Assembly (NCBI GenBank): GCA_015064785.1
Contig: SVRM01000010.1
Coordinates: forward strand, 1 to 54,906
DNA length: 54,906 bases
Source: Oscillospiraceae bacterium
Lineage (GTDB): Bacteria; Bacillota; Clostridia; Oscillospirales; CAG-272
Reading direction: 5' to 3'
The translations under genes and the position numbers were made by a program. The notes beneath the pieces were generated by a model. That model had not been told where the DNA came from and searched no databases. It saw only the letters and a list, made by a program, of their open reading frames with translations. The first letter of the stretch is position 1. Every line of letters starts with the position of its first letter. Positions 8,765 to 18,853 of this stretch are shown piece after piece.

Positions 8765-8781
8765 GATCGTTATACTCCTTG

Positions 8782-9031
8782 TAATAAATTAAATTTTTGG
8801 CAATTGCAAAATTGCCTACCTTCATCGCCCAAAGGGCGATATATGAACAAATTGCGTCGCTTGGGCGGGTTTCCCGCCCAAAAAGACACCTTCAAAGCGA
8901 CCAAAGGGACGCCATCCGAAGAAATGCATTGCATTTCTTCAGAAGTTGCGCTGCAACTTCGTTGGCTATGCGTCAGCCCGATGAAACCGATTGCAAAATG
9001 CAATTTTGCAATCGATTAATAAGTTAAATTT
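8782..9031. repeat. Multi-hairpin array (element 1) with flanking 15-bp near-direct repeats
   Basis: About 215 bases hold six perfect hairpins with 3-5 base loops: 8799-8816 (7-bp stem), 8824-8840 (7 bp), 8861-8881 (9 bp, TTGGGCGGG/CCCGCCCAA), 8918-8940 (10 bp, GAAGAAATGC/GCATTTCTTC), 8942-8960 (8 bp) and 8988-9014 (11 bp). The block is bounded by TAATAAATTAAATTT (8782-8796) and TAATAAGTTAAATTT (9017-9031), one mismatch apart, the second overlapping the stop codon of the flavoprotein gene. Short open frames across it have no ribosome sites and simply read through the palindromes. It resembles the block at 45716-46008. Confidence 0.85.
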
Positions 9032-10631
9032 CCGAGCGTCTGCCCGTGTAATTGGGCAAAAGCTTCGGGGAAACCGCATCGGATACAATGCCCTCCGCGG
9101 ACAGTGCCGCTTCAAAAGCCTCCACATGGGACAGCGTCAGCGCACCCGGCTTCACCGTTTGTGCCGCTGCTGCCGCATTGCGTCCGGCAGATCGACCGAA
9201 CACGATGATGTCGAGCAGCGAGTTGCCCATCAGACGGTTGCGTCCGTGGATGCCGCCGACCACCTCACCTGCGGCAAACAGGTTCTCAACGCCGGTTGTC
9301 ATGCATGTCCCATCAATGTCAAGTCCACCGTTCTGGTAGTGCAGTGTCGGATAAACGAGAATCGGCTCGACGCGGATATCAATGCCGAATCTGCCGAACA
9401 TACGCATCATCGCGGGAATCCGCGCTTCAATCGTTCCCGCACCGCCGAGCAGCTCAATCATCGGGGTATCCAGCCAGACACCGCATCCGGACGGCGTTTC
9501 GACACCGTTTTTGCGTGCAGTACACTCCCGGATGATTGCCGCGGCGGAGACATCACGCGTTTCCAGCGGGTGCATGAATACGGTTCCGTCCGCGCCTATG
9601 AGCTTAGCACCAAGCGAGCGCACCTTTTCGGTCACAAGCGCACCGAAAATCTGCTCCGGATATGCCGCTCCCGTCGGATGATACTGTAAGGTATCGGCAT
9701 ACAGCAGAGACGCACCGGCTCGGTAGCCGAGAACCAAACCGTCCGCCGTTGCACCGTAATGGTTGGAGGTGGCAAAGCCCTGATAATGCATTCTGCCGGC
9801 ACCGCCCGTTGCAAGGACCACGGTCTTGGCCCGTGCGATCAGCAGTTCCTTCGTTTCCATATTTTGGAGAACCGCTCCTGCCGCGCGTCCGTTTTCGTCC
9901 AGAATCAGCTCAACCGCCGCCGTAAAATCGAGCACGGGAATTTCGCGGTTGAACACCTCATCCCGCAGAGTCCGCATGATTTCCGCGCCGGAGTAATCCT
10001 TTGCGGCGTGCATACGCTTGCGCGAGGTTCCGCCGCCATGCGTGGTAATCATTGTGCCGTCCGGTGCCTTGTCAAATTCCACACCGAGACGGTCGAGCCA
10101 GCGGATGGCTTCCGGTGCTTCGGTGACAAGCTTGCCGAGCAGTTCCGGCTTTGCCGCAAAATGGCCGCCGCCGAAGGCATCAAGGTAATGGATTGCGGGA
10201 CTGTCTCCGGGCTTGTCTGCCGCCTGAATGCCGCCCTCCGCCATCATCGTGTTGGCATCACCGATGCGCAGCTTGGTCACGATCATGACCGAAGCACCGG
10301 CTTCTTTGGCTTCAATGGCCGCCGCGGCACCGGCACCGCCGCCGCCGATCACCAGCACATCCACGTCATACATAACGGCGGTCAGATCGACATCGGCCGG
10401 TGTGATTCTGCTGTGCGCATGGAGCATTTCGCAAAGCTCATGCGGAACAGCATCTCCTTTGTTTTTCCCGACCGCAAGCGCCGCAAATGCATCGGTTTTA
10501 TAGTCGGGATGATAGGTTCTGAGAAGTGTTTCCTTCTCCTCTGCCGTCATGCGCGGCGGCTCATATGCAAGATTTCTCTCCCGTGCCTGCGCCAGTGCGG
10601 TCAGGGACGCTTCATATTGACTTGGATACAT
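9024..10631 (-). CDS. Fumarate reductase-like FAD flavoprotein subunit
   Basis: This 535-aa protein uses ATG 10631 (GGAGG eight bases upstream); an ATG six bases earlier is too close to that site. After an unusual 88-residue N-terminal extension comes the dinucleotide-binding motif DVLVIGGGGAGAAAAIEA. The fumarate reductase/succinate dehydrogenase active-site set is complete: H318 in QYHPTG, T334-E335 in ALVTEK, R359 in ETRD, H431 in LHYQNGG and R464 in HGRNRLMGNSL. The His that binds FAD covalently in FrdA is replaced by Asn (N127 in DANTMMAEGG), so FAD is probably non-covalent, as in thiol:fumarate reductase TfrA. It is the last gene of the Hdr/Flox operon, 13 bases after the iron-sulfur subunit. 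Physiological direction and exact substrate (fumarate or another enoate) are inferred, not shown. Confidence 0.87.
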   Translation of the reverse strand: MYPSQYEASLTALAQARERNLAYEPPRMTAEEKETLLRTYHPDYKTDAFAALAVGKNKGDAVPHELCEMLHAHSRITPADVDLTAVMYDVDVLVIGGGGAGAAAAIEAKEAGASVMIVTKLRIGDANTMMAEGGIQAADKPGDSPAIHYLDAFGGGHFAAKPELLGKLVTEAPEAIRWLDRLGVEFDKAPDGTMITTHGGGTSRKRMHAAKDYSGAEIMRTLRDEVFNREIPVLDFTAAVELILDENGRAAGAVLQNMETKELLIARAKTVVLATGGAGRMHYQGFATSNHYGATADGLVLGYRAGASLLYADTLQYHPTGAAYPEQIFGALVTEKVRSLGAKLIGADGTVFMHPLETRDVSAAAIIRECTARKNGVETPSGCGVWLDTPMIELLGGAGTIEARIPAMMRMFGRFGIDIRVEPILVYPTLHYQNGGLDIDGTCMTTGVENLFAAGEVVGGIHGRNRLMGNSLLDIIVFGRSAGRNAAAAAQTVKPGALTLSHVEAFEAALSAEGIVSDAVSPKLLPNYTGRRSEI

Positions 10632-10644
10632 CGTCATCCCCTCC

Positions 10645-11319
10645 TCACACTTCGATCTCACGGTTGTTGTAAAGCTCTTTCATCTCATCAATCGGCTTCT
10701 GCATCAGTGCTTCTAAAAGCTCTGTAAATGTGCCGTTTTCAATCTCACGCACACGGTCCTCCAGATGCGCTGACGGCGGTGCGAGATACTTGCCGTTGAG
10801 CCGGCGCGACAGCATTGCCACCTGCGGATGCGAAATGCCGGCGGGACAGCGCGACGAGCAGACACCGCACATGACACAGTCAAAGGATGCCTCGGCACAT
10901 TTGTCATATTCACCGCGCTGTGCATAAGCAATGTACTGCATGACATTCAGTCCCTGCGTGCAGGAGCGCGTACAGGCATTACAGCCGATGCAGGCGTATA
11001 TTTCCGGATACAGCTGCATCATGATCTGCTCGGTCGGACGGATTTTTTCCATATCGTAAACCTGTTTGACCAGCGGGAAAAACGGAAGCGCGGCAATGTA
11101 CATGCCGTCCTCGACCTTCGTCTGACACGCAAGGCACGTTTTCAGCTCGCGCTGACCGTGAATGCGGTAGACCGTCGCACACGCACCGCAGAAGCCGTTT
11201 CTGCATCCGCAGCCGCGGATCAGCTGATAACCGGCGTATTCCATCGCACGCATGACCGTCAGGGAATCGGGTACCTGATATGCTTTCCCAAACAGGTGAA
11301 TTGTTACCATTGTTTCCAT
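10645..11319 (-). CDS. Fumarate reductase-like iron-sulfur subunit
   Basis: This 224-aa protein has an N-terminal 2Fe-2S ferredoxin fold with clustered cysteines (GCGCRNGFCGAC, then TCLAC) and a C-terminal alpha-helical domain with two cluster motifs (CIGCNACTRSC and CVMCGVCSSRCP). This is the FrdB/SdhB layout. It lacks the fused HdrB-like CCG domains of methanogen TfrB; those domains are encoded separately in this operon as HdrB. The start is ATG 11319 after GAGGAA at 11-base spacing, with a second ATG three codons in. It precedes the flavoprotein gene by 13 bases. The protein should wire electrons from the Hdr/Flox module to the flavoprotein; no membrane anchor subunit is encoded nearby, so a soluble complex is likely. 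Confidence 0.85.
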   Translation of the reverse strand: METMVTIHLFGKAYQVPDSLTVMRAMEYAGYQLIRGCGCRNGFCGACATVYRIHGQRELKTCLACQTKVEDGMYIAALPFFPLVKQVYDMEKIRPTEQIMMQLYPEIYACIGCNACTRSCTQGLNVMQYIAYAQRGEYDKCAEASFDCVMCGVCSSRCPAGISHPQVAMLSRRLNGKYLAPPSAHLEDRVREIENGTFTELLEALMQKPIDEMKELYNNREIEV

Positions 11320-11340
11320 AGAAATCTGAATTCCTCGTAT

Positions 11341-12183
11341 TTAATCATATTCCTCAGGCAGTGCATCCAGCGCATCAAAGCGGAACACCGGACCGTAACG
11401 GCAGACATATTTCTGTCCGATGTTGCACCTGCCGCATTTGCCGATGCCGCACTTCATGCGCATTTCCATTGTTGTGTAGACCTGCTCACGGGAAAAGCCC
11501 ATTGCCTCCAGAGAAGCCAGCGTAAACTTAATCATGATCGGCGGACCGCAGATGATGGCTGTGCGGTCCGGAACAAAGTCAAGCTCTTTTACATAGTTCG
11601 GAACAAATCCGACATGTCCTCCCCAGCCTTCCTGCTCCCGGTCAATGGTCAGATGGACGCGAATGCCGTCCTCCTCACACCATTCCCCGAGAATCTCGTC
11701 ATAGTCCACCAGATCCTGCATCGAGCGGGAACCATAGACAATATCGATCTCGCCGTACCGTTCTCTGAAATGCCGGACATAATTGATGACTGAGCGCAGC
11801 GGTGCCAGACCGATGCCGCCGGCAATGAACAGCAGCTTCTGTCCGACAAACGCCCCGTCCACCGGAAAGCCGTTGCCATACGGACCGCGGATTGTAATCA
11901 TCTGTCCGACATCCATCGCATGAAGCCAGTCCGTCAGACAGCCGCACTTCTTGATGGAGAACTCCATATAATCCGTGTTGGTCGGAGAGGAGGTAATCGA
12001 AAACATCGCCTCGCCGACACCCGGAACAGAGAGCATGGCGCACTGTCCGGGCTTGTGGTCAAACGGCTTTGCTCCATCGGGTGTGACCACACGGAAGGTC
12101 TTGACATCGGGCGTGTCGCGCCGGATATCCGTCACCACACCGATGGCGGGAATCAGCGCTTCCGGCCGAAAATTTTGTCCCAT
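11341..12183 (-). CDS. FAD/NAD(P)-binding oxidoreductase, FloxA-like
   Basis: This 280-aa protein is of the ferredoxin-NADP reductase/DHOD electron-transfer subunit type. The FAD-binding barrel carries AMFSITSSP, the nucleotide domain carries LLFIAGGIGLAPLRSV, and the C-terminal 2Fe-2S binding motif is C-x4-C-x2-C-x7-C (CGIGKCGRCNIG...). ATG 12183 directly follows the stop of the upstream gene, with GGAGGAG inside that gene's end. In HdrABC-FloxABCD complexes this subunit oxidises NAD(P)H and feeds MvhD/FloxD and HdrA. The sulfite-reductase subunit AsrB belongs to the same family, but no siroheme subunit is present, so the Flox role fits better. Confidence 0.85.
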   Translation of the reverse strand: MGQNFRPEALIPAIGVVTDIRRDTPDVKTFRVVTPDGAKPFDHKPGQCAMLSVPGVGEAMFSITSSPTNTDYMEFSIKKCGCLTDWLHAMDVGQMITIRGPYGNGFPVDGAFVGQKLLFIAGGIGLAPLRSVINYVRHFRERYGEIDIVYGSRSMQDLVDYDEILGEWCEEDGIRVHLTIDREQEGWGGHVGFVPNYVKELDFVPDRTAIICGPPIMIKFTLASLEAMGFSREQVYTTMEMRMKCGIGKCGRCNIGQKYVCRYGPVFRFDALDALPEEYD

Positions 12184-13215
12184 TTACGACTCCTCCTTCC
12201 CGCCAAGCATATTCATCACTTTTGTAATATTCATTGCAATCGGACATGCCGCAAGACACCGTCCGCAGCCGACACAGCCAAACATCCCGTCATTGTTCGC
12301 CGGGAAGTACACCAGTTTGTGCAGAAACCGCTGTCGGAACCGCTGCATCTGCGTGGTACGCGGCTGACCTGCCGACATTTTTGTGAATTCCGAATACATA
12401 CAGCTGTCCCAGCACCGATACCGGCAGATGCCGTGTCCGGTATCAAAGTCGCGGATATCATAGCACTGGCAGGTCGGACAGACAAAGGTACATGTGCCGC
12501 AGCCCAAACACGATTCGGAAAGCGTTTCCCACTCCGGACGGTCAAACAGCACATCAAGCGCATCCGCGCCGAAGCCATCGGTCGTAAGCGATGCCAGCGG
12601 AAGCCGTTCCGTGCGTGCGCGGATCAGCTGCTTCTGTTCTGTCACCGCCGCATGGTCATCGCTGCAATCTTCCAGAATCGCGCCGCACGCATCAAGCAGT
12701 ACCTGACCGCGTTCCGTGCAGCCGTCAAGATACAGCGCGTCCTCCGTCCGATAACAGGCAATATCACCGCCCGGGTCGGATGCGTCAATGCCAAAGGCAT
12801 GGCAGAAGCAGGTCTGTGCCGGACGTGTACACGCCATTGTCATGAGAATCACATGATCTCTGCGTGCCGCATAATAGCTGTCAGCGGGTGCAGACAGAAA
12901 CACACGGTCAAGAACGTCAATGCTTTTTGCATCACACGCGCGGACACCGAACAGAATGAAATCCTCCGGTTCTGTCCGTTCGTCGATGACAGAAACCGAT
13001 TTTCCCTCCCGGCGGAACTTCACCAGATCCTCGGTCTGCGGAAAGAAAAAGGATTTCGGCGAGAGACGTGTGTTGGAAGATGCACTGTAGGTCACACCTG
13101 CCGCATATTTGGTATACACCGCGCCGTTGTCTGATTCCGTCGGAAGATACAGCGGTGCCGTCTGCGACAGCGCCTCAAACAGCGCAGTCAGATCGGAATG
13201 CGGATAACATTTCAT
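12184..13215 (-). CDS. 4Fe-4S dicluster protein, FloxB/AsrA-like
   Basis: This 343-aa protein starts at ATG 13215, overlapping the previous stop by four bases (ATGA), which indicates coupled translation. The N-terminal half resembles the AsrA/hydrogenase-beta accessory domain (FILFGVRACDAKSIDVLD). The C-terminal half has two 4Fe-4S motifs (CLGCGTCTFVCPTCQC and CVGCGRCLAACP) with extra cysteines near CRYRCWDSC. Proteins of this type relay electrons between the FAD/NAD subunit and the other iron-sulfur proteins. The next gene begins immediately after its stop. Assignment to a particular Flox letter is by position and similarity, not certain. Confidence 0.8.
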   Translation of the reverse strand: MKCYPHSDLTALFEALSQTAPLYLPTESDNGAVYTKYAAGVTYSASSNTRLSPKSFFFPQTEDLVKFRREGKSVSVIDERTEPEDFILFGVRACDAKSIDVLDRVFLSAPADSYYAARRDHVILMTMACTRPAQTCFCHAFGIDASDPGGDIACYRTEDALYLDGCTERGQVLLDACGAILEDCSDDHAAVTEQKQLIRARTERLPLASLTTDGFGADALDVLFDRPEWETLSESCLGCGTCTFVCPTCQCYDIRDFDTGHGICRYRCWDSCMYSEFTKMSAGQPRTTQMQRFRQRFLHKLVYFPANNDGMFGCVGCGRCLAACPIAMNITKVMNMLGGKEES

Positions 13216-14213
13216 TTGTCATCCCTCCCATCCGCCCGGACTGACGCTTCCGGATCATCGGTACGGTAATCGACCAGAGGAAACCGCTGTCCGACCTCCG
13301 CACCCGCCGTATAGGCACCCCAGCTGCGGTTGATATCCAAAATCATCTTCCGGTTCAGCAGATGAAGCGGGATCCGCTGCGGACAGACACGGGAGCATTC
13401 ACCGCAGTCGACACAGCGTCCCGTGACGTGATAGGCGCGGATGATGTGGAACATCTGCTCCTCAAACAGATCTGCCGCCGCTTTATTTTCAAGTCCCGAT
13501 TTCGGGTTGTCAAAGACACATTTTTCGCAGGTACAGACCGGACAGACATCGCGGCAGGCATTGCATCGGATACAGCGGGAAAACGCCTCCTGCCAGAACG
13601 CAAACCGTTCCTCCTCCGTCATCGTCTCCAGCGTATCCACCGCAGAATAACGTGCGGGATGTTCATCCGGCTCCGTTTTTTCACACGCCATCCACTCGTC
13701 ACAGTCCGCAGCATGACCGTGTCCGCAGGTCCTGCACCGCTCGGGCAGAACATCGGGGAGCGGATACGATCTGTCGCCGTCATAAAGGGTGTGAAGCACC
13801 AGCGTATCACCCTCGCATTCGGCACCTGTGATGCCGTCCGGCGAAAGCGCATTTGTTGTATGGACATCCATCATGCCGCCGCACGAAATGCCGATGGCAT
13901 AAACCTTTTCACGGTCAAACCGATGCTCGGTCAGAAGTGCATTGAACGCATAGCTGTCACAGGGCTTGAGAAAGATCAGCGTCTTACCCTTACTGTCGTT
14001 GTTTGCTTCTCTGATCAGATATTTTGACAGATTGGCACAGCAGAACACATCAAAGACAAAGTCCCGCTCAAGTGCCCCGGTATCCGAAAACACGGCAGGC
14101 GTGACGTCATAGGAAAAGTCACCGCGCCGCCAGCCAAGCACACGGGAAACTGTCCCGTCATCCAGAAGCTGCCGCGCACGCGATACCAGCTGTGCCTGTG
14201 TTACTTTCTGCAT
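13212..14213 (-). CDS. 4Fe-4S dicluster protein, FloxC/F420-hydrogenase-beta-like
   Basis: This 333-aa protein starts at ATG 14213, seven bases after GGAGG; the frame extends further upstream without a ribosome site. It has an N-terminal domain with VFCCANLSKYLI and LKPCDSYAFNALLTEH (cysteine residues in a 'KPCD' loop as in coenzyme F420 hydrogenase beta-like proteins), a small cysteine knot CRTCGHGHAADC, and two 4Fe-4S motifs, CIRCNACRDVCPVC and CVDCGECSRVCP. It overlaps the MvhD-type gene upstream by 13 bases and the next gene by four, so the three are tightly coupled. It is expected to be a soluble electron-relay subunit of the Flox module. Confidence 0.8.
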   Translation of the reverse strand: MQKVTQAQLVSRARQLLDDGTVSRVLGWRRGDFSYDVTPAVFSDTGALERDFVFDVFCCANLSKYLIREANNDSKGKTLIFLKPCDSYAFNALLTEHRFDREKVYAIGISCGGMMDVHTTNALSPDGITGAECEGDTLVLHTLYDGDRSYPLPDVLPERCRTCGHGHAADCDEWMACEKTEPDEHPARYSAVDTLETMTEEERFAFWQEAFSRCIRCNACRDVCPVCTCEKCVFDNPKSGLENKAAADLFEEQMFHIIRAYHVTGRCVDCGECSRVCPQRIPLHLLNRKMILDINRSWGAYTAGAEVGQRFPLVDYRTDDPEASVRADGRDDK

Positions 14214-14644
14214 CGTAAATCCTCCAGTCGTCTGCTCGGTCCAAGCTCTCGTACTGTTTCGCAGAACGCTTTCATCACAGCAGCAAATTTCGCACCTTCC
14301 GCGGCAGAGACCCATTCCACCCGCATTCGCTGCCGTTCAATTCCGAGGTAGGACAGCATGGAAAACAGTGCCGTCATACGACGGCGCGTAAAGTAGTTGC
14401 CTGTCGTATAATGGCAGTCCCCGGGATGACAGCCGCACAGAATCACACCGTCTGCACCGCGCCCGAACGCACGGAGAAGGAACATCGGATTGACACGGCA
14501 GGAACACGGAACACGGATGATTTTCACGTCAGCCGGATAGGAGAGCCGATTGTTCCCCGCCAGATCCGCACCGGCATAGGAACACCAGTTGCAGCAGAAT
14601 GCCACCACCGTCGGGCGGAAATCGTTTTGTTCATTTATTTGCAT
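14201..14644 (-). CDS. MvhD/FloxD-type electron-transfer linker
   Basis: This 147-aa protein starts at ATG 14644 (GGAGG about ten bases upstream), overlapping the end of hdrA by ten bases. It has the family signatures CCNWCSYAGADLAG, the VPCSCR loop and GCHPGDCHYTTGN, which bind a 2Fe-2S cluster and pass electrons to HdrA. In methanogens MvhD links the hydrogenase MvhAG to HdrABC; in bacteria without MvhAG the same protein (FloxD) links to an NAD(P)H-oxidising Flox module, as the downstream genes here suggest. The usual CSGR sequence reads CSCR, adding a cysteine. Confidence 0.9.
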   Translation of the reverse strand: MQINEQNDFRPTVVAFCCNWCSYAGADLAGNNRLSYPADVKIIRVPCSCRVNPMFLLRAFGRGADGVILCGCHPGDCHYTTGNYFTRRRMTALFSMLSYLGIERQRMRVEWVSAAEGAKFAAVMKAFCETVRELGPSRRLEDLRCRK

Positions 14645-16629
14645 ATGGCATCCACCTCCGCCATAATCTGATCGTTTTTGAAGCCCTGCAAATCCATCGC
14701 TCCCGATGGGCAGGCAACCGTACAGGCACCGCATCCCAGGCACACTGCCGCATTGACACAGGCAACCCGGCGTACCTTCATCGAGCGGTCGGGCATACGG
14801 AATTCTTTGTCTTCATAGGAAATCGCACCGGCAGGACAAACACCGGCACACTGCGCACATCCGGAACACAGCATCGGATCAGACTGCGCCACACACGGGT
14901 TTCCGAGCAGCGTCTGTTTGGACAACAGACCGATGACCTTTGCCGCCGCCGCGCTCGCCTGTGCCACCGTTTCGGGAATATCCTTCGGACCCTGACAGGT
15001 TCCGGACAAAAAGACACCTGCGGTCGGTGATTCCACCGGACGGAGCTTCGGATGCGCCTCGGTAAAGAAGTCGTTTGTATCCATCGACGCATTCAGCTTT
15101 GTTGCCAGCGCACGTGCCGATTTGTCGGGTTCAATCGCCGCAGCAAGCACCACCAGATCGGCATCAACGTTCATCTGCCGTCCGTTGAGCAGATCGGAGG
15201 CCTGGACACGCAGAACCTCACCCTGCGGTGTCACCCGACCGACCATGCCCTTGATGTAATGCACACCGTATTCTTCGACAGCACGACGCTGGAATTCGTC
15301 AAAGTTCTTGCCGGGCGTTCTGACATCGATATAAAACACATACACCTCGGTGTCGGGATACTTGTCGCGGATGAGCATGGCGTGCTTCGCTGTATACATA
15401 CAGCAGATTTTCGAGCAGTATTCCTTGCCGCGCCGCGCATCTGCCGAACAGCGGCTGCCGACACACTGCACAAACACGACCGTGTGCGGATGGCGTCCGT
15501 CCGACGGGCGCTGCAGCTGTCCCTGTGTCGGACCAGCGGCATTGGTCAGACGTTCCAATTCGAGCGAGGTGATGACATCCGGCGAGAGACTGTACGCATA
15601 CTCGTCAAACGCATCCATCGGAATCGGATTGTATCCGGTTGCCGCAACAATGGCACCGTACTCCTCCTCGATGGTTTCCGGCTCCTGCCGATAGTCGATC
15701 GCACCGGCGCTGCATACCCGCGCGCAGACGCCGCATTTGCCGTTTTTGAGCATGTTGCAGGCATCGGGATCAATCACCGCCACCTTCGGCACCGCCTGCG
15801 CAAACGGAATGTATATCGCGCGGTGTGTATCCATATTCAGATTGAAAGCATTGGGAACCTGCTTCTGCGGACATTTTTCGGTACAGATGCCGCATCCGGT
15901 ACACAGGTCTTCCTTTACATATCGCGGTTTCTTCTTGATTTTCACGTGGAAATTGCCGACAAAGCCGCCGACCTCAACGACCTCGGCATAAGAGAGAATC
16001 CGGATATTTTCATGCTGCGCCGCGTCCACCATTTTCGGTGTCAGAATACACGCGGCACAGTCCAGCGTCGGAAAGGTCTTATCAAGCTGTGCCATCTTTC
16101 CGCCGATGGTCGGTTCGCGCTCAACGATATCCACCGGGAATCCGGCTTCCGCAATGTCAAGTGCGGTCTGAATGCCGGCAATGCCGCCGCCGATGACAAG
16201 CGCTCGCTTCGTGACCGCGCTCTGACCGGGGGTCAGCGGTGTGTTGAGATGCACCTTCGCAATCGCCGCACGGGCAAGCACAATGGCTTTTTCCGTGGCA
16301 GATGCAATATCCTTATGTACCCACGAGCATTGCTCGCGGATGTTGGCAATTTCAATCATGTAGGGATTGATGCCTGCCGCCTGCGCCGTCCGACGGAAGG
16401 TCGCTTCATGCATACGCGGCGAACAGGAGCAGATCACAAGCGCTGTCAGTGCGTGTTCCTTTACCGCATCGATGATCATGCGCTGTCCCGTCTGCGAGCA
16501 CATATACGGATAGTCGGCAGCATACACAACGCCCCACTCTCCGCGTACCGCATCGGCAACAGCACCGACATCGACCGTCGCTGCGATATTCGTTCCGCAA
16601 TGACAGACAAATACGCCAATTCTTTGCAT
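14635..16629 (-). CDS. hdrA: Heterodisulfide reductase subunit A (HdrA), electron-bifurcating flavoprotein
   Basis: This 664-aa protein has the full bacterial/archaeal HdrA layout: an N-terminal domain with IGVFVCHCGTNIA and ICSCSPRMHE, an FAD motif ALVIGGGIAGIQTALD, an inserted ferredoxin domain (CTGCGICTEKCP and CGVCARVC), a cysteine-rich middle stretch (CVQCVGSRC-like, then CSKICCMYTAKHA), and two C-terminal 4Fe-4S motifs (CSGCAQCAGVCP and CLGCGACTVACP). HdrA is where flavin-based electron bifurcation takes place in HdrABC-MvhAGD and is proposed to do so in HdrABC-Flox. ATG 16629 has GGGAG 13 bases upstream. It lies between hdrC and the MvhD-type gene, overlapping the latter. Family certainty is very high. 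Confidence 0.94.
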   Translation of the reverse strand: MQRIGVFVCHCGTNIAATVDVGAVADAVRGEWGVVYAADYPYMCSQTGQRMIIDAVKEHALTALVICSCSPRMHEATFRRTAQAAGINPYMIEIANIREQCSWVHKDIASATEKAIVLARAAIAKVHLNTPLTPGQSAVTKRALVIGGGIAGIQTALDIAEAGFPVDIVEREPTIGGKMAQLDKTFPTLDCAACILTPKMVDAAQHENIRILSYAEVVEVGGFVGNFHVKIKKKPRYVKEDLCTGCGICTEKCPQKQVPNAFNLNMDTHRAIYIPFAQAVPKVAVIDPDACNMLKNGKCGVCARVCSAGAIDYRQEPETIEEEYGAIVAATGYNPIPMDAFDEYAYSLSPDVITSLELERLTNAAGPTQGQLQRPSDGRHPHTVVFVQCVGSRCSADARRGKEYCSKICCMYTAKHAMLIRDKYPDTEVYVFYIDVRTPGKNFDEFQRRAVEEYGVHYIKGMVGRVTPQGEVLRVQASDLLNGRQMNVDADLVVLAAAIEPDKSARALATKLNASMDTNDFFTEAHPKLRPVESPTAGVFLSGTCQGPKDIPETVAQASAAAAKVIGLLSKQTLLGNPCVAQSDPMLCSGCAQCAGVCPAGAISYEDKEFRMPDRSMKVRRVACVNAAVCLGCGACTVACPSGAMDLQGFKNDQIMAEVDAICK

Positions 16630-16650
16630 GGTAACCGGTGTTCTCCCTTC

Positions 16651-17055
16651 TTATTTCCGATATTTTCGCATCGCGCTGACGAGCAACTGCTGCGGCATGT
16701 CTTCATCAAGCCGTGCGGGGATGTCGTCAGGCGAGAAGGTATATCCTCCGCGCAAACGCTGACGGACGGTGCATACCGCCTCCACCAGCTTTGACGGCTC
16801 CACGCCGCGCGGACACCGCTCGGTACATGCCATGCAGGACAAACAGCGGTCAAGGCTCGGCGCATCCAAAAGCGGTACGATCTCGCCGCGGTCGACGAAA
16901 TCGACAACCTCATGCGGATGGTATTCCATTTCATGATAGGCAGGACAGGTACCGGTACATTTGCCGCACCGCATACATTTTTTCGGATTGACACCGCTGA
17001 TGCGCAAAATTTCTTCGCGCAGAAGCGATAATTTCTGATTCATTTTCGTTTCCAT
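16651..17055 (-). CDS. hdrC: Heterodisulfide reductase subunit C (HdrC)-like 4Fe-4S protein
   Basis: This protein of about 134 residues has two classical motifs, CMRCGKCTGTCP and CLSCMACTERCP, and little else, which is the HdrC pattern: it carries electrons between HdrA and HdrB. I placed the start at ATG 17055, six bases after GAGG. An alternative ATG at 17067 overlaps the hdrB stop as ATGA and would add four residues. It lies between hdrB and hdrA, 21 bases before the latter. Confidence 0.9.
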   Translation of the reverse strand: METKMNQKLSLLREEILRISGVNPKKCMRCGKCTGTCPAYHEMEYHPHEVVDFVDRGEIVPLLDAPSLDRCLSCMACTERCPRGVEPSKLVEAVCTVRQRLRGGYTFSPDDIPARLDEDMPQQLLVSAMRKYRK

Positions 17056-17063
17056 GGTATCCC

Positions 17064-17858
17064 TCATCCATCACAGACACCGAGTGCCTGCGCCAGAAGT
17101 TCCGTAAAATAGACAACCGGCAAACCGGATGCTGTTTTTGCAAGATTGTATCGGCACAAGGGACATGCCGTAACCAGCAAATCCGCTCCGGCTGATACCG
17201 CATTTTCCGTGACCGCACAGCTCTGTCTTTTTGCGGCATCGGGATCATCCAGCGCCGTATAGCCGCCGCAGCACTCCACACGCTTTGCAAACCGGACCGG
17301 CTCCGCACCGAGTGCCCGGATCAAATCCTCGATGATGTTCGGATTTTCCGGGTCATCCATTGCCATCACCGGCGACGGACGGAGCAGAAGACAGCCGTAA
17401 TATGCACCGATGCGCCTGCCGGCAAGCGGTTTTTTTACCGCCGCACGGACTCCTTCCCATCCGACTACATCACGCAGAAGCTCCAGATAATGGTAGATCT
17501 GCACTTCCCCGTGATACGGCGTGTACCCGGGATTGCCCTGTGCAAGATATCGGTTGGCACGGTCGGCAAAAACAGAATCGGTACGCATTGCCGCATTGGT
17601 CCGCTTGAGAACGTTGTGACACGCGGAGCATACCGTCACAATCGGCTGACCGGCATCATACGCCGCTGTCAGCGCGCGGACCGCCGACAGCTTGTCTGCA
17701 ATCTGATCGTTTGCGGTATTGTAAACACCGCCGCAGCACTGCCAGTCAGGAAGCTCCTCCAGCGTCACACCGAGGCGTTTGGCACAGGCGCGGGTGTCTG
17801 CATCCAGCTGTTTTGCTTTTGTTTTCAGCGTACAGCCGGGAAAATAACTGTATTTCAT
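17064..17858 (-). CDS. hdrB: Heterodisulfide reductase subunit B (HdrB)-like CCG-domain protein
   Basis: This 264-aa protein has two CCG domains. The first begins YFPGCTLKTKAKQLD and carries CQCCGG and CSACHNVLKR; the second carries VECCGGYTALDD and CPLCRYNLA. In methanogens these hold the non-cubane 4Fe-4S clusters that reduce heterodisulfide; the bacterial substrate is unknown. The start ATG 17858 has AGGA 11 bases upstream. It is the first gene of the nine-gene operon, 55 bases from a strong promoter. All CCG cysteines expected for both domains can be seen, so a catalytic disulfide- or thiol-linked site is plausible. Confidence 0.9.
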   Translation of the reverse strand: MKYSYFPGCTLKTKAKQLDADTRACAKRLGVTLEELPDWQCCGGVYNTANDQIADKLSAVRALTAAYDAGQPIVTVCSACHNVLKRTNAAMRTDSVFADRANRYLAQGNPGYTPYHGEVQIYHYLELLRDVVGWEGVRAAVKKPLAGRRIGAYYGCLLLRPSPVMAMDDPENPNIIEDLIRALGAEPVRFAKRVECCGGYTALDDPDAAKRQSCAVTENAVSAGADLLVTACPLCRYNLAKTASGLPVVYFTELLAQALGVCDG

Positions 17859-17912
17859 ATCAAATGCGATCCTTTCTGAATTGATGCGCATGTATTTATC
17901 TTTATTCTTTAT

Positions 17913-17941
17913 ATTATAGCATATCTTGCCGTGCTTGTCAA
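17913..17941 (-). promoter_or_regulatory. SigA-type promoter of the hdr/flox/frd-like operon
   Basis: Read on the minus strand: TTGACA (17936-17941), a 17-base spacer and TATAAT (17913-17918). The match is perfect, and it is the only obvious promoter for the nine genes. Confidence 0.88.
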
Positions 17942-18050: not shown

Positions 18051-18079
18051 TTGACAAAATCACTTGATTGTGATATAAT
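18051..18079 (+). promoter_or_regulatory. SigA-type promoter of the shell-protein gene
   Basis: TTGACA (18051-18056), a 17-base spacer and TATAAT (18074-18079), 37 bases before ATG 18116. It is a consensus promoter divergent from the hdr operon promoter; their -35 elements are about 110 bases apart. Confidence 0.9.
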
Positions 18080-18115
18080 AACGTTGTATTGAATGACAGA
18101 GAGGAGATGTATGCT

Positions 18116-18853
18116 ATGTTCCGTCCGACTGACCTTTTTTCGGACCACACAATTCCGGAATTTGTCGGCTGTACCCTGCTTGATACCATTGGTCTGGTCA
18201 TTTCCGGCGTAGATTCTGCATTGAAAGAACAGATGCAGCAGCAGATTCCCTTCTCCATCGGCAAAAGCATCTCCGCACTCGGTCTGCTCTCCTCCCGTAC
18301 CGGTGCCGCAGGTCAGATTGTAGCCTGTGATGACGCCGTCAAGGCAACCTCGACGCAGCTGATCTCTGTCGAGCTTCCGCGCGATACCAAGGGCTGGGGC
18401 GGACATGGCTGTTATATTGTCCTCGGCGGAAATACACCTTCCGATGTGCGACAGGCAATTACCTTTGCACTGAACGGCGTTACCAAAAACGCCGGTGAAG
18501 TGTATATCAGCGATGCAGGTCATCTGGAATTTGCATTTACTGCGCGCGCAGGTGACGTTGTTCACCGTGCCTTCGGTGCTCCAAAGGGAGCAGCATTCGG
18601 CTTTCTCGCGGCATCACCCGCCGCCATCGGTCTGGTTCTTGCCGACCGCGCACTCAAATCCGCACCTGTGGACATCGTTTCCTATATGACCCCGACCGTC
18701 GGAACCAGCCATTCCAACGAAGTCATTCTTGCATTTTCCGGTGATGCCGATGCCGTGCGGACAGCGGTCAGAGAAGCGCGTGAGGTCGGACTGGTCCTTC
18801 TGCGCACCATGGGTTCCGAGCCAAAATCGCCCGGTGCTGCACCGTATATCTGA
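18116..18853 (+). CDS. Bacterial microcompartment shell protein, PduB-type (tandem BMC trimer)
   Basis: This 245-aa protein has two BMC domains in tandem. Family marks are EFVGCTLLDTIGLVISGVD, SSRTGAAGQIVACDDAVKAT, ELPRDTKGWGGHGCYI, DAGHLEFAFTARAGDVVHRA, PAAIGLVLADRAL and TSHSNEVILAFSGDADAVR, closing with the PduB-like end SEPKSPGAAPYI. PduB-type trimers form facets of propanediol, ethanolamine and glycyl-radical microcompartments. The start is ATG 18116, nine bases after AGGAG; an ATG touching that site is less likely. No other shell, enzyme or encapsulation gene lies beside it, so it is an orphan with its own strong promoter. The DUF1836 gene follows after 129 bases. Confidence 0.92.
   Translation: MFRPTDLFSDHTIPEFVGCTLLDTIGLVISGVDSALKEQMQQQIPFSIGKSISALGLLSSRTGAAGQIVACDDAVKATSTQLISVELPRDTKGWGGHGCYIVLGGNTPSDVRQAITFALNGVTKNAGEVYISDAGHLEFAFTARAGDVVHRAFGAPKGAAFGFLAASPAAIGLVLADRALKSAPVDIVSYMTPTVGTSHSNEVILAFSGDADAVRTAVREAREVGLVLLRTMGSEPKSPGAAPYI

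Follow-up and report, generated by a model that had tools for sequence, protein, structure and literature searches.

Here we describe a nine-gene operon, hdrB-hdrC-hdrA-mvhD-floxC-floxB-floxA-frdB-frdA, on the minus strand (9024-17858) of a 54,906-nucleotide (nt) stretch of DNA from an Oscillospiraceae bacterium (contig SVRM01000010.1 of assembly GCA_015064785.1), hereafter the window. We consider it about two-thirds probable that the operon encodes a soluble, bifurcating NADH (reduced nicotinamide adenine dinucleotide):ferredoxin/fumarate reductase, in which the nine subunits form a single complex with HdrB as its wire. In the proposed mechanism FloxA would oxidise NADH and the electrons would pass through FloxB/C and MvhD to the flavin of HdrA, where they would be split: one stream would reduce ferredoxin and the other would run through HdrC, HdrB, FrdB and FrdA to convert fumarate into succinate, HdrB thus connecting the two halves rather than acting as a disulfide reductase. 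NADH as the donor, bifurcation at HdrA, the reduction of ferredoxin, the contact between HdrB and FrdB and a stable nine-subunit complex are all predictions from the protein families. With midpoint potentials of -320 mV for NADH, +30 mV for fumarate and -420 to -500 mV for ferredoxin, the oxidation of two NADH by one fumarate and two one-electron ferredoxins would be exergonic by roughly 30-50 kJ/mol. Because the host genome contains two RnfC genes (both above the cut-off), the reduced ferredoxin could drive an ion pump through Rnf. If this is true, a soluble enzyme would let many gut Clostridia draw ion-pumping energy from making succinate, and a membrane fumarate reductase would not be required.

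Nine genes in a single conserved operon

All nine reading frames begin with ATG and contain no internal stop codon, and adjacent genes overlap by up to 13 nt or are separated by up to 21 nt. The family names of the nine proteins are backed by Pfam and NCBIfam matches. The first gene, hdrB (17064-17858, 264 amino acids), encodes two CCG domains in which all ten cluster cysteines are present (C9, 41, 42, 77, 80, 156, 196, 197, 232 and 235), together with the signature CxxCxxV and CCGxY, formed with V83 and Y200, that we call Frd-type below. It is followed by hdrC (16651-17067, 138 amino acids), for a 4Fe-4S dicluster protein, and by hdrA (14635-16629, 664 amino acids), for a flavin adenine dinucleotide (FAD) and 4Fe-4S protein that aligns along its whole length with HdrA chains from solved structures of methanogen complexes (E 2.3e-203). 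Next come mvhD/floxD (14201-14644, 147 amino acids; FlpD family), a floxC-like gene (13212-14213, 333 amino acids; a 4Fe-4S dicluster domain of no specific family), a floxB-like gene (12184-13215, 343 amino acids; Fer4_22, kin of sulfhydrogenase beta/AsrA) and floxA (11341-12183, 280 amino acids), whose product, an FAD/NAD(P)-binding reductase, has an iron-sulfur motif of the DHODB type. The last two genes are frdB-like (10645-11319, 224 amino acids), with a plant-type 2Fe-2S motif (C39, C44, C47, C65) and two CxxCxxCxxxC motifs, and frdA-like (9024-10631, 535 amino acids), for an FAD_binding_2 flavoprotein. The window therefore encodes together the seven Flx-Hdr subunits (HdrA, HdrB, HdrC and FlxA-D), and these share one operon with two fumarate reductase genes, as in the set of Pseudoclostridium thermosuccinogenes. 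A preliminary description of this DNA, made from the letters alone, had proposed exactly such a tightly packed nine-gene operon joining Flox-HdrABC to a fumarate reductase pair, in which HdrB is a protein distinct from the FrdB-like subunit and one consensus promoter stands in front, and in all these points it was borne out.

The promoter, at 17913-17941 on the minus strand, is of the sigma-A type (TTGACA-N17-TATAAT, with TG before the -10 element) and matches the consensus at 12 of 12 positions. Our promoter scan returned 14 promoter-like sites, compared with a mean of 7.1 (standard deviation 3.0) in shuffled sequences; within the block, the operon strand carries among others two 10/12 matches, in floxC (13513-13485) and in frdA (10075-10048), and none lies in the 21-nt gap between floxA and frdB. 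Across loci this gap has a median of 16 nt and exceeds 100 nt in only 4 of 96; a promoter at this place in related genomes had been named in the preliminary description as something that would speak against a single complex.

We determined the conservation of the block in a close set of 98 loci. Eighteen of these come from a search of 59 genomes (the window's own included), in which an FrdB orthologue was found at E under 1e-100 in 18 others; the remaining 80 are named records which are the best matches to a query alignment, hence a close set, and which are mostly metagenome-assembled genomes from the gut titled Clostridia, Oscillospiraceae or Ruminococcus (two are titled Treponema). The nine genes stand in the same order in 75 of the 98 loci (14 of the 18 relatives and 61 of the 80 records), or in 71 of the 94 distinct loci left after removal of four repeats. 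The other 23 (4 and 19, respectively) are interrupted by contig ends and none contradicts the order. Junction lengths across loci have medians of -13 to +16 nt. As controls we took 20 stretches of ~20 kb from FrdB-bearing genomes, and only one contained any of the nine genes, namely two hdrA-like frames at 38 and 27% identity. The nine genes are thus one conserved operon, with its closest relatives in gut Clostridia.

FrdA and its pathway neighbours point to fumarate

In an alignment of FrdA with E. coli SdhA/FrdA, residues H318, T334, E335, R338, H431 and R466, which we take to be the catalytic and binding positions of the fumarate site, are present in the window protein and do not vary among 13 diverse rows or among 29 close ones. 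Equally invariant in these rows is Asn127, which takes the place of the histidine carrying the covalently bound FAD in E. coli SdhA. E. coli FrdA without the flavin-linking histidine reportedly still reduces fumarate and hardly oxidises succinate, and Asn127 fits a reductive direction of the window FrdA. The AlphaFold2 (AF2) model of FrdA has a predicted local distance difference test score (pLDDT) of 75.9; its top Foldseek match is E. coli FrdA (template-modelling score, TM, 0.65), and with VIA-align its top matches are flavocytochrome c fumarate reductases. Among NCBIfam profiles TfrA scores best, at 324.9 bits, below its cut-off of 718. FrdB has no HdrB-like domain and matches SdhB and TfrB weakly by sequence, and there is no membrane anchor gene among the nine genes.

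The genes that flank the block in relatives are consistent with this assignment. A class II fumarase gene, fumC, lies upstream in 63 of the 70 distinct loci with room for a gene, and a malate/lactate-dehydrogenase-like gene in at least 49 of the same 70, some loci ending earlier; an AspT-family (PF06826) permease gene lies downstream in 57 of 72. The dehydrogenase carries the NCBIfam name L-lactate dehydrogenase; we read it as a malate dehydrogenase because it has Arg at the Q/R102 position, where lactate dehydrogenases presumably carry Gln. SucE, a member of the AspT family, exports succinate in Corynebacterium. We also drew 398 genomes from the phylum, in which FrdB was found in 39 at E 1e-20, the window's own included. 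Near FrdBA in 29 of the 38 other loci we found a gene of tricarboxylic acid (TCA) or C4 metabolism at an identity of at least 35% (fumarase, malic enzyme, pyruvate carboxylase, succinyl-CoA ligase, aconitase or isocitrate dehydrogenase), compared with none of the 20 control stretches, one of which gave a FumC-like match at 28%. These neighbours make fumarate the most likely electron acceptor, as the preliminary description had supposed.

A distinct HdrB lineage accompanies FrdBA

A tree of 61 HdrB proteins splits into groups of 31 and 30 with a support of 100/99 and a separating branch of ~0.7 changes per column. HdrB of the first group, the Frd type, was found in 31 of 37 FrdBA genomes sampled and in 0 of 19 Frd-less genomes, the latter having been chosen by their HdrA matches, so that a Frd-type HdrB in them could have escaped. 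The Frd side holds 24 of 25 HdrB adjacent to FrdBA, drawn from all five Hdr arrangements, together with six of the seven unlinked sets described below and L251. On the other side are all 19 HdrB of Frd-less genomes, those of the second Hdr-Flox of five HdrCB-FrdBA genomes, four of the cytochrome-b type, L253 and L112. The tree took in 9 of 19 type-1 loci and 6 of 11 loci of the type with a second HdrA; no HdrB was found for L245, and L238, which was left out, groups in another tree with the HdrB of Frd-less genomes (20 of 20). The positions of the long branches (L255, L251, L112, L078 and L093 among others) are unsure. The five HdrCB-FrdBA genomes hold both kinds, the Frd type beside FrdBA and the other in the second Hdr-Flox, and species descent alone is therefore insufficient to explain the split.

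The two kinds also differ in sequence next to the cluster cysteines. All 103 Frd-type rows (defined as FrdBA-adjacent or on the Frd side of the tree, and including four repeats) contain CxxCxxV and 102 of them CCGxY, and neither occurs in any of 31 other rows; these have Arg at the CxxCxx position in 29 of 31 cases and never Tyr at CCGx. An interpretation as the loss of a catalytic Arg was dropped, the CxxCxx position being Ser in two methanogen HdrB alignments. In the HdrA tree, 27 FrdBA-associated rows also group together (96/93), on a branch of 0.055 changes per column, and HdrB has thus diverged far more than HdrA between the two kinds. We read the tree and the signature as those of an HdrB that may be adapted to pass electrons to FrdB. 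If so, the HdrB split and the two-residue signature would make it easy to tell from sequence whether a given HdrABC complex should feed a fumarate reductase or another acceptor.

Many HdrA genes in other genomes of the phylum contain one in-frame TGA, possibly for selenocysteine, which is absent from the window hdrA and from those FrdBA-adjacent hdrA genes that could be matched by place.

FrdBA is a module

It had been stated earlier that frequent separation of the last two genes from the other seven would defeat the single-complex idea. Such separation is seen in none of the 98 close loci, whereas in the phylum draw 33 of the 38 loci lie outside a complete nine-gene block, some being interrupted by contig ends. 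Complete Flox-HdrABC stands beside FrdBA in five of the 38 (four with frdBA first and one with frdBA last), hdrC-hdrB alone precedes FrdBA in five, and hdrCBA with a second HdrA-like protein and MvhD accompanies it in 11, again with some interruption by contig ends; five have a cytochrome-b-like gene beside FrdBA and 12 have neither Hdr nor cytochrome b nearby. These classes cluster in a tree of FrdB and FrdA (55 rows; L063 and L096, without frdA, left out), which needs eight changes of arrangement compared with a shuffled mean of 32.3. HdrA is matched at E 1e-120 in 34 of 38 FrdB-positive and 94 of 359 FrdB-negative genomes. The twelve stand-alone FrdBA loci include those of the four genomes without such a match; in the other eight we read the best HdrA locus and found HdrB adjoining in seven, six of them with an unlinked hdrB-hdrC-hdrA-mvhD-flox set whose HdrB falls on the Frd side.

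FrdBA is therefore modular, and occurs with Flox-HdrABC, with HdrCB alone, with other Hdr sets, with cytochrome b or with no Hdr. The single-complex idea loses strength from this only if it is meant to hold universally. Tentatively, and as something possible that still falls a little short of probable, we propose that FrdBA is a plug-in acceptor module, and that a separate line of HdrB, recognisable by CxxCxxV and CCGxY, gave up disulfide reduction and became a wire into FrdB, which would allow one soluble fumarate reductase to be driven by Flox-HdrABC, by HdrCB alone, by other Hdr sets, or by cytochrome b where no Frd-type HdrB was found.

In L099-L112 (not L103, L106 and L108) the cluster reads hdrC-hdrB-hdrA, a second HdrA-like protein of ~1070 amino acids with two FAD regions, mvhD and frdBA. 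Genes resembling those of 2-oxoacid:ferredoxin oxidoreductases, and sucCD, belong to the same clusters, which may encode an entire TCA branch together with its electron carrier.

Weighing the single complex against other explanations

Several observations weigh against a single bifurcating complex wired by HdrB, and they are given here together with the alternative explanations. The ten HdrB cluster cysteines are all kept in 84 of 84 rows, so that HdrB may still reduce disulfides, and the NCBIfam SdhE and HdrB profiles do not separate the two HdrB types, their scores lying within ~22 bits of each other for the window HdrB, 8 Frd-linked and 8 other Flox-type HdrB. As HdrA splits like HdrB, part of the HdrB signal may reflect the history of the whole Hdr set. 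In L112 the HdrB adjoins FrdBA and yet falls on the other side of the tree, with its HdrA on the Frd side; the placement of L253 and that of the five Hdr loci of cytochrome-b-type genomes (only L251 falls on the Frd side, the remaining four opposite) stand either against the proposal or beside it. AF2 gave no usable model of FrdB (pLDDT 50.7), so that its contacts with HdrB/HdrC could not be modelled. The invariant cysteines would suit two enzymes encoded in one operon, Flox-HdrABC bifurcating electrons from NADH to ferredoxin and a disulfide, and the dithiol then feeding FrdBA as a thiol:fumarate reductase. TfrA as the top NCBIfam match of FrdA points the same way, as do the Hdr loci of Frd-less genomes, 19 of 20 of which read hdrC-hdrB-hdrA-mvhD-floxCBA without frdBA and imply that Flox-Hdr works alone elsewhere. 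We regard this explanation as unlikely, since FrdB lacks the HdrB-like domain that would take electrons from a thiol, the HdrB of FrdBA loci keep to one side of the tree with or without Flox (HdrCB-FrdBA loci included), and the two HdrB types have different residues next to their cluster cysteines.

FrdBA also occurs beside a cytochrome-b-like gene in five genomes and, in four FrdB-positive genomes of 38 (L087, L089, L091 and L094), without an HdrA match at E 1e-120. FrdBA in these four genomes and in the HdrCB-only loci suggests that bifurcation is perhaps unneeded, and the step from NADH to fumarate alone would, by the midpoint potentials given above, be strongly exergonic; the operon could then encode a soluble NADH:fumarate reductase in which HdrA is a mere electron-transfer subunit. 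A full-length HdrA close to that of solved complexes named as ferredoxin reductases, mvhD and flox genes in every uncut close locus, and RnfC in the host, which gives a use for ferredoxin, make this slightly less likely still than the two-enzyme explanation.

A further set of observations concerns the host itself, whose genome (3.58 Mb in 173 contigs) is 85.7% complete. In it a FumC query gave only a 26% partial match; there was no match to the class I fumarase C-domain, to an AspT-family permease or to the ATP-type phosphoenolpyruvate carboxykinase (PEPCK), other forms not having been searched, and none to a malate/lactate dehydrogenase query, in a search that had no positive control and again did not cover other forms. 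The window block has no adjoining fumarase or transporter gene. Among the relatives, FumC is lacking in 5 of 19 FrdB-bearing genomes, the window's own included, and its co-occurrence with FrdB is weak (14 of 19 vs 14 of 40; P 0.011, Fisher, uncorrected for kinship). With neither a usual fumarase nor such a dehydrogenase detected in its genome, this host might use its FrdA on an enoate other than fumarate, which we think very improbable: the genome is incomplete, the fumarate-site residues H, T, E, R, H and R are kept as in distant FrdA rows, and in three relatives of the same genus fumC lies directly at the block. The absence of fumC from the window block may be due to loss, an assembly gap or a mis-join.

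Relation to known systems

The seven-gene FlxABCD-HdrABC of Desulfovibrio vulgaris is reportedly an NADH dehydrogenase/heterodisulfide reductase proposed to bifurcate, and a 2014 study by Meyer is said, by its title, to link Hdr-Flox, Rnf and fumarate reduction in Desulfovibrio alaskensis. In the parts of the D. vulgaris literature available, that system has no frdBA and a DsrC thiol/disulfide is its proposed carrier, whereas the window has frdBA. The 19 seven-gene loci of Frd-less genomes differ from the window in their order, hdrC-hdrB as opposed to hdrB-hdrC. The methanogen TfrAB is soluble and consists of an FrdA-like flavoprotein, an FrdB-like iron-sulfur part and an HdrB-like part; TfrB fuses the latter two, whereas in the window they are separate genes with those for HdrC, HdrA, MvhD and the Flox proteins between them. 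With the membrane quinol:fumarate reductase/succinate dehydrogenase the window FrdA shares the fumarate-site residues and, as modelled, the FrdA/SdhA fold; unlike that enzyme, the nine-gene block has no anchor gene and its FrdA has Asn127 in place of the FAD-linking His. E-type succinate dehydrogenase/methylmenaquinol:fumarate reductase has an HdrB-like subunit, SdhE, as partner of the FrdB subunit, and the SdhE and HdrB profiles scored the window HdrB within the ~22 bits given above.

The preliminary description had offered the combination of a Flox-HdrABC module and a fumarate reductase as its own idea. This combination had already been proposed in print in 2019-2020 (PMC7282089, PMC6315080), and a categorically new gene combination is accordingly rejected. 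The available part of PMC7282089 describes a 'succinate operon' of P. thermosuccinogenes with a fumarase, a seven-gene bifurcating NADH dehydrogenase/Hdr, a pair of fumarate reductase genes and a putative succinate transporter. It gives transcript data and no enzyme test, and with reference to Ramos 2015 and a preprint of 2019 it takes the reduction of fumarate to be linked to ferredoxin. On that description the operon resembles the loci of the window's relatives in its fumarase, Flx-Hdr seven, Frd pair and possible succinate transporter, and differs from the window block, which has neither fumarase nor transporter, both also not found in its own genome. In the text available of PMC6315080 (2019), the products of flxABCD-hdrABC, korABCD and tfrAB in gammaproteobacterial symbionts and their kin are suggested to form one complex, the same idea, from gene order, of direct transfer to a fumarate reductase; those TfrAB homologues lie inside a reductive TCA cluster, whereas in the window FrdB is separate and HdrB is the sole CCG subunit of the nine. 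A cluster of Tfr, Hdr and Mvh genes is noted in the part seen of PMC8542988. Among open-access titles and abstract openings, none reports an enzyme test of a Flx-Hdr-Frd complex or a fumarate-specific HdrB. Our additions to these proposals are FrdBA as a module and one type of HdrB tied to FrdBA, which is predicted to wire the two halves.

Neighbouring genes and minor observations

At the place where the three same-genus relatives have fumC, the window has a gene for a PduB-type bacterial microcompartment (BMC) shell protein (18089-18853, plus strand; above the NCBIfam PduB cut-off), divergent from the operon. A second 12/12 promoter, at 18051-18079, points in the opposite direction to that of the operon, towards this gene. 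No match to it was found in 136 related loci scanned (56 + 80), and for this absence and its own divergent promoter we rejected it as a part of the system. The same genome has seven further BMC domains, six of them on contig C3 and one on C141. An RnfC-like frame with one TAA inside (G000:C3:4588-5922) lies amid the C3 group and may be PduS. Between frdA and the next gene (8770-9020) the window contains a run of short palindromes, seen by eye, which is possibly a small repeat element.

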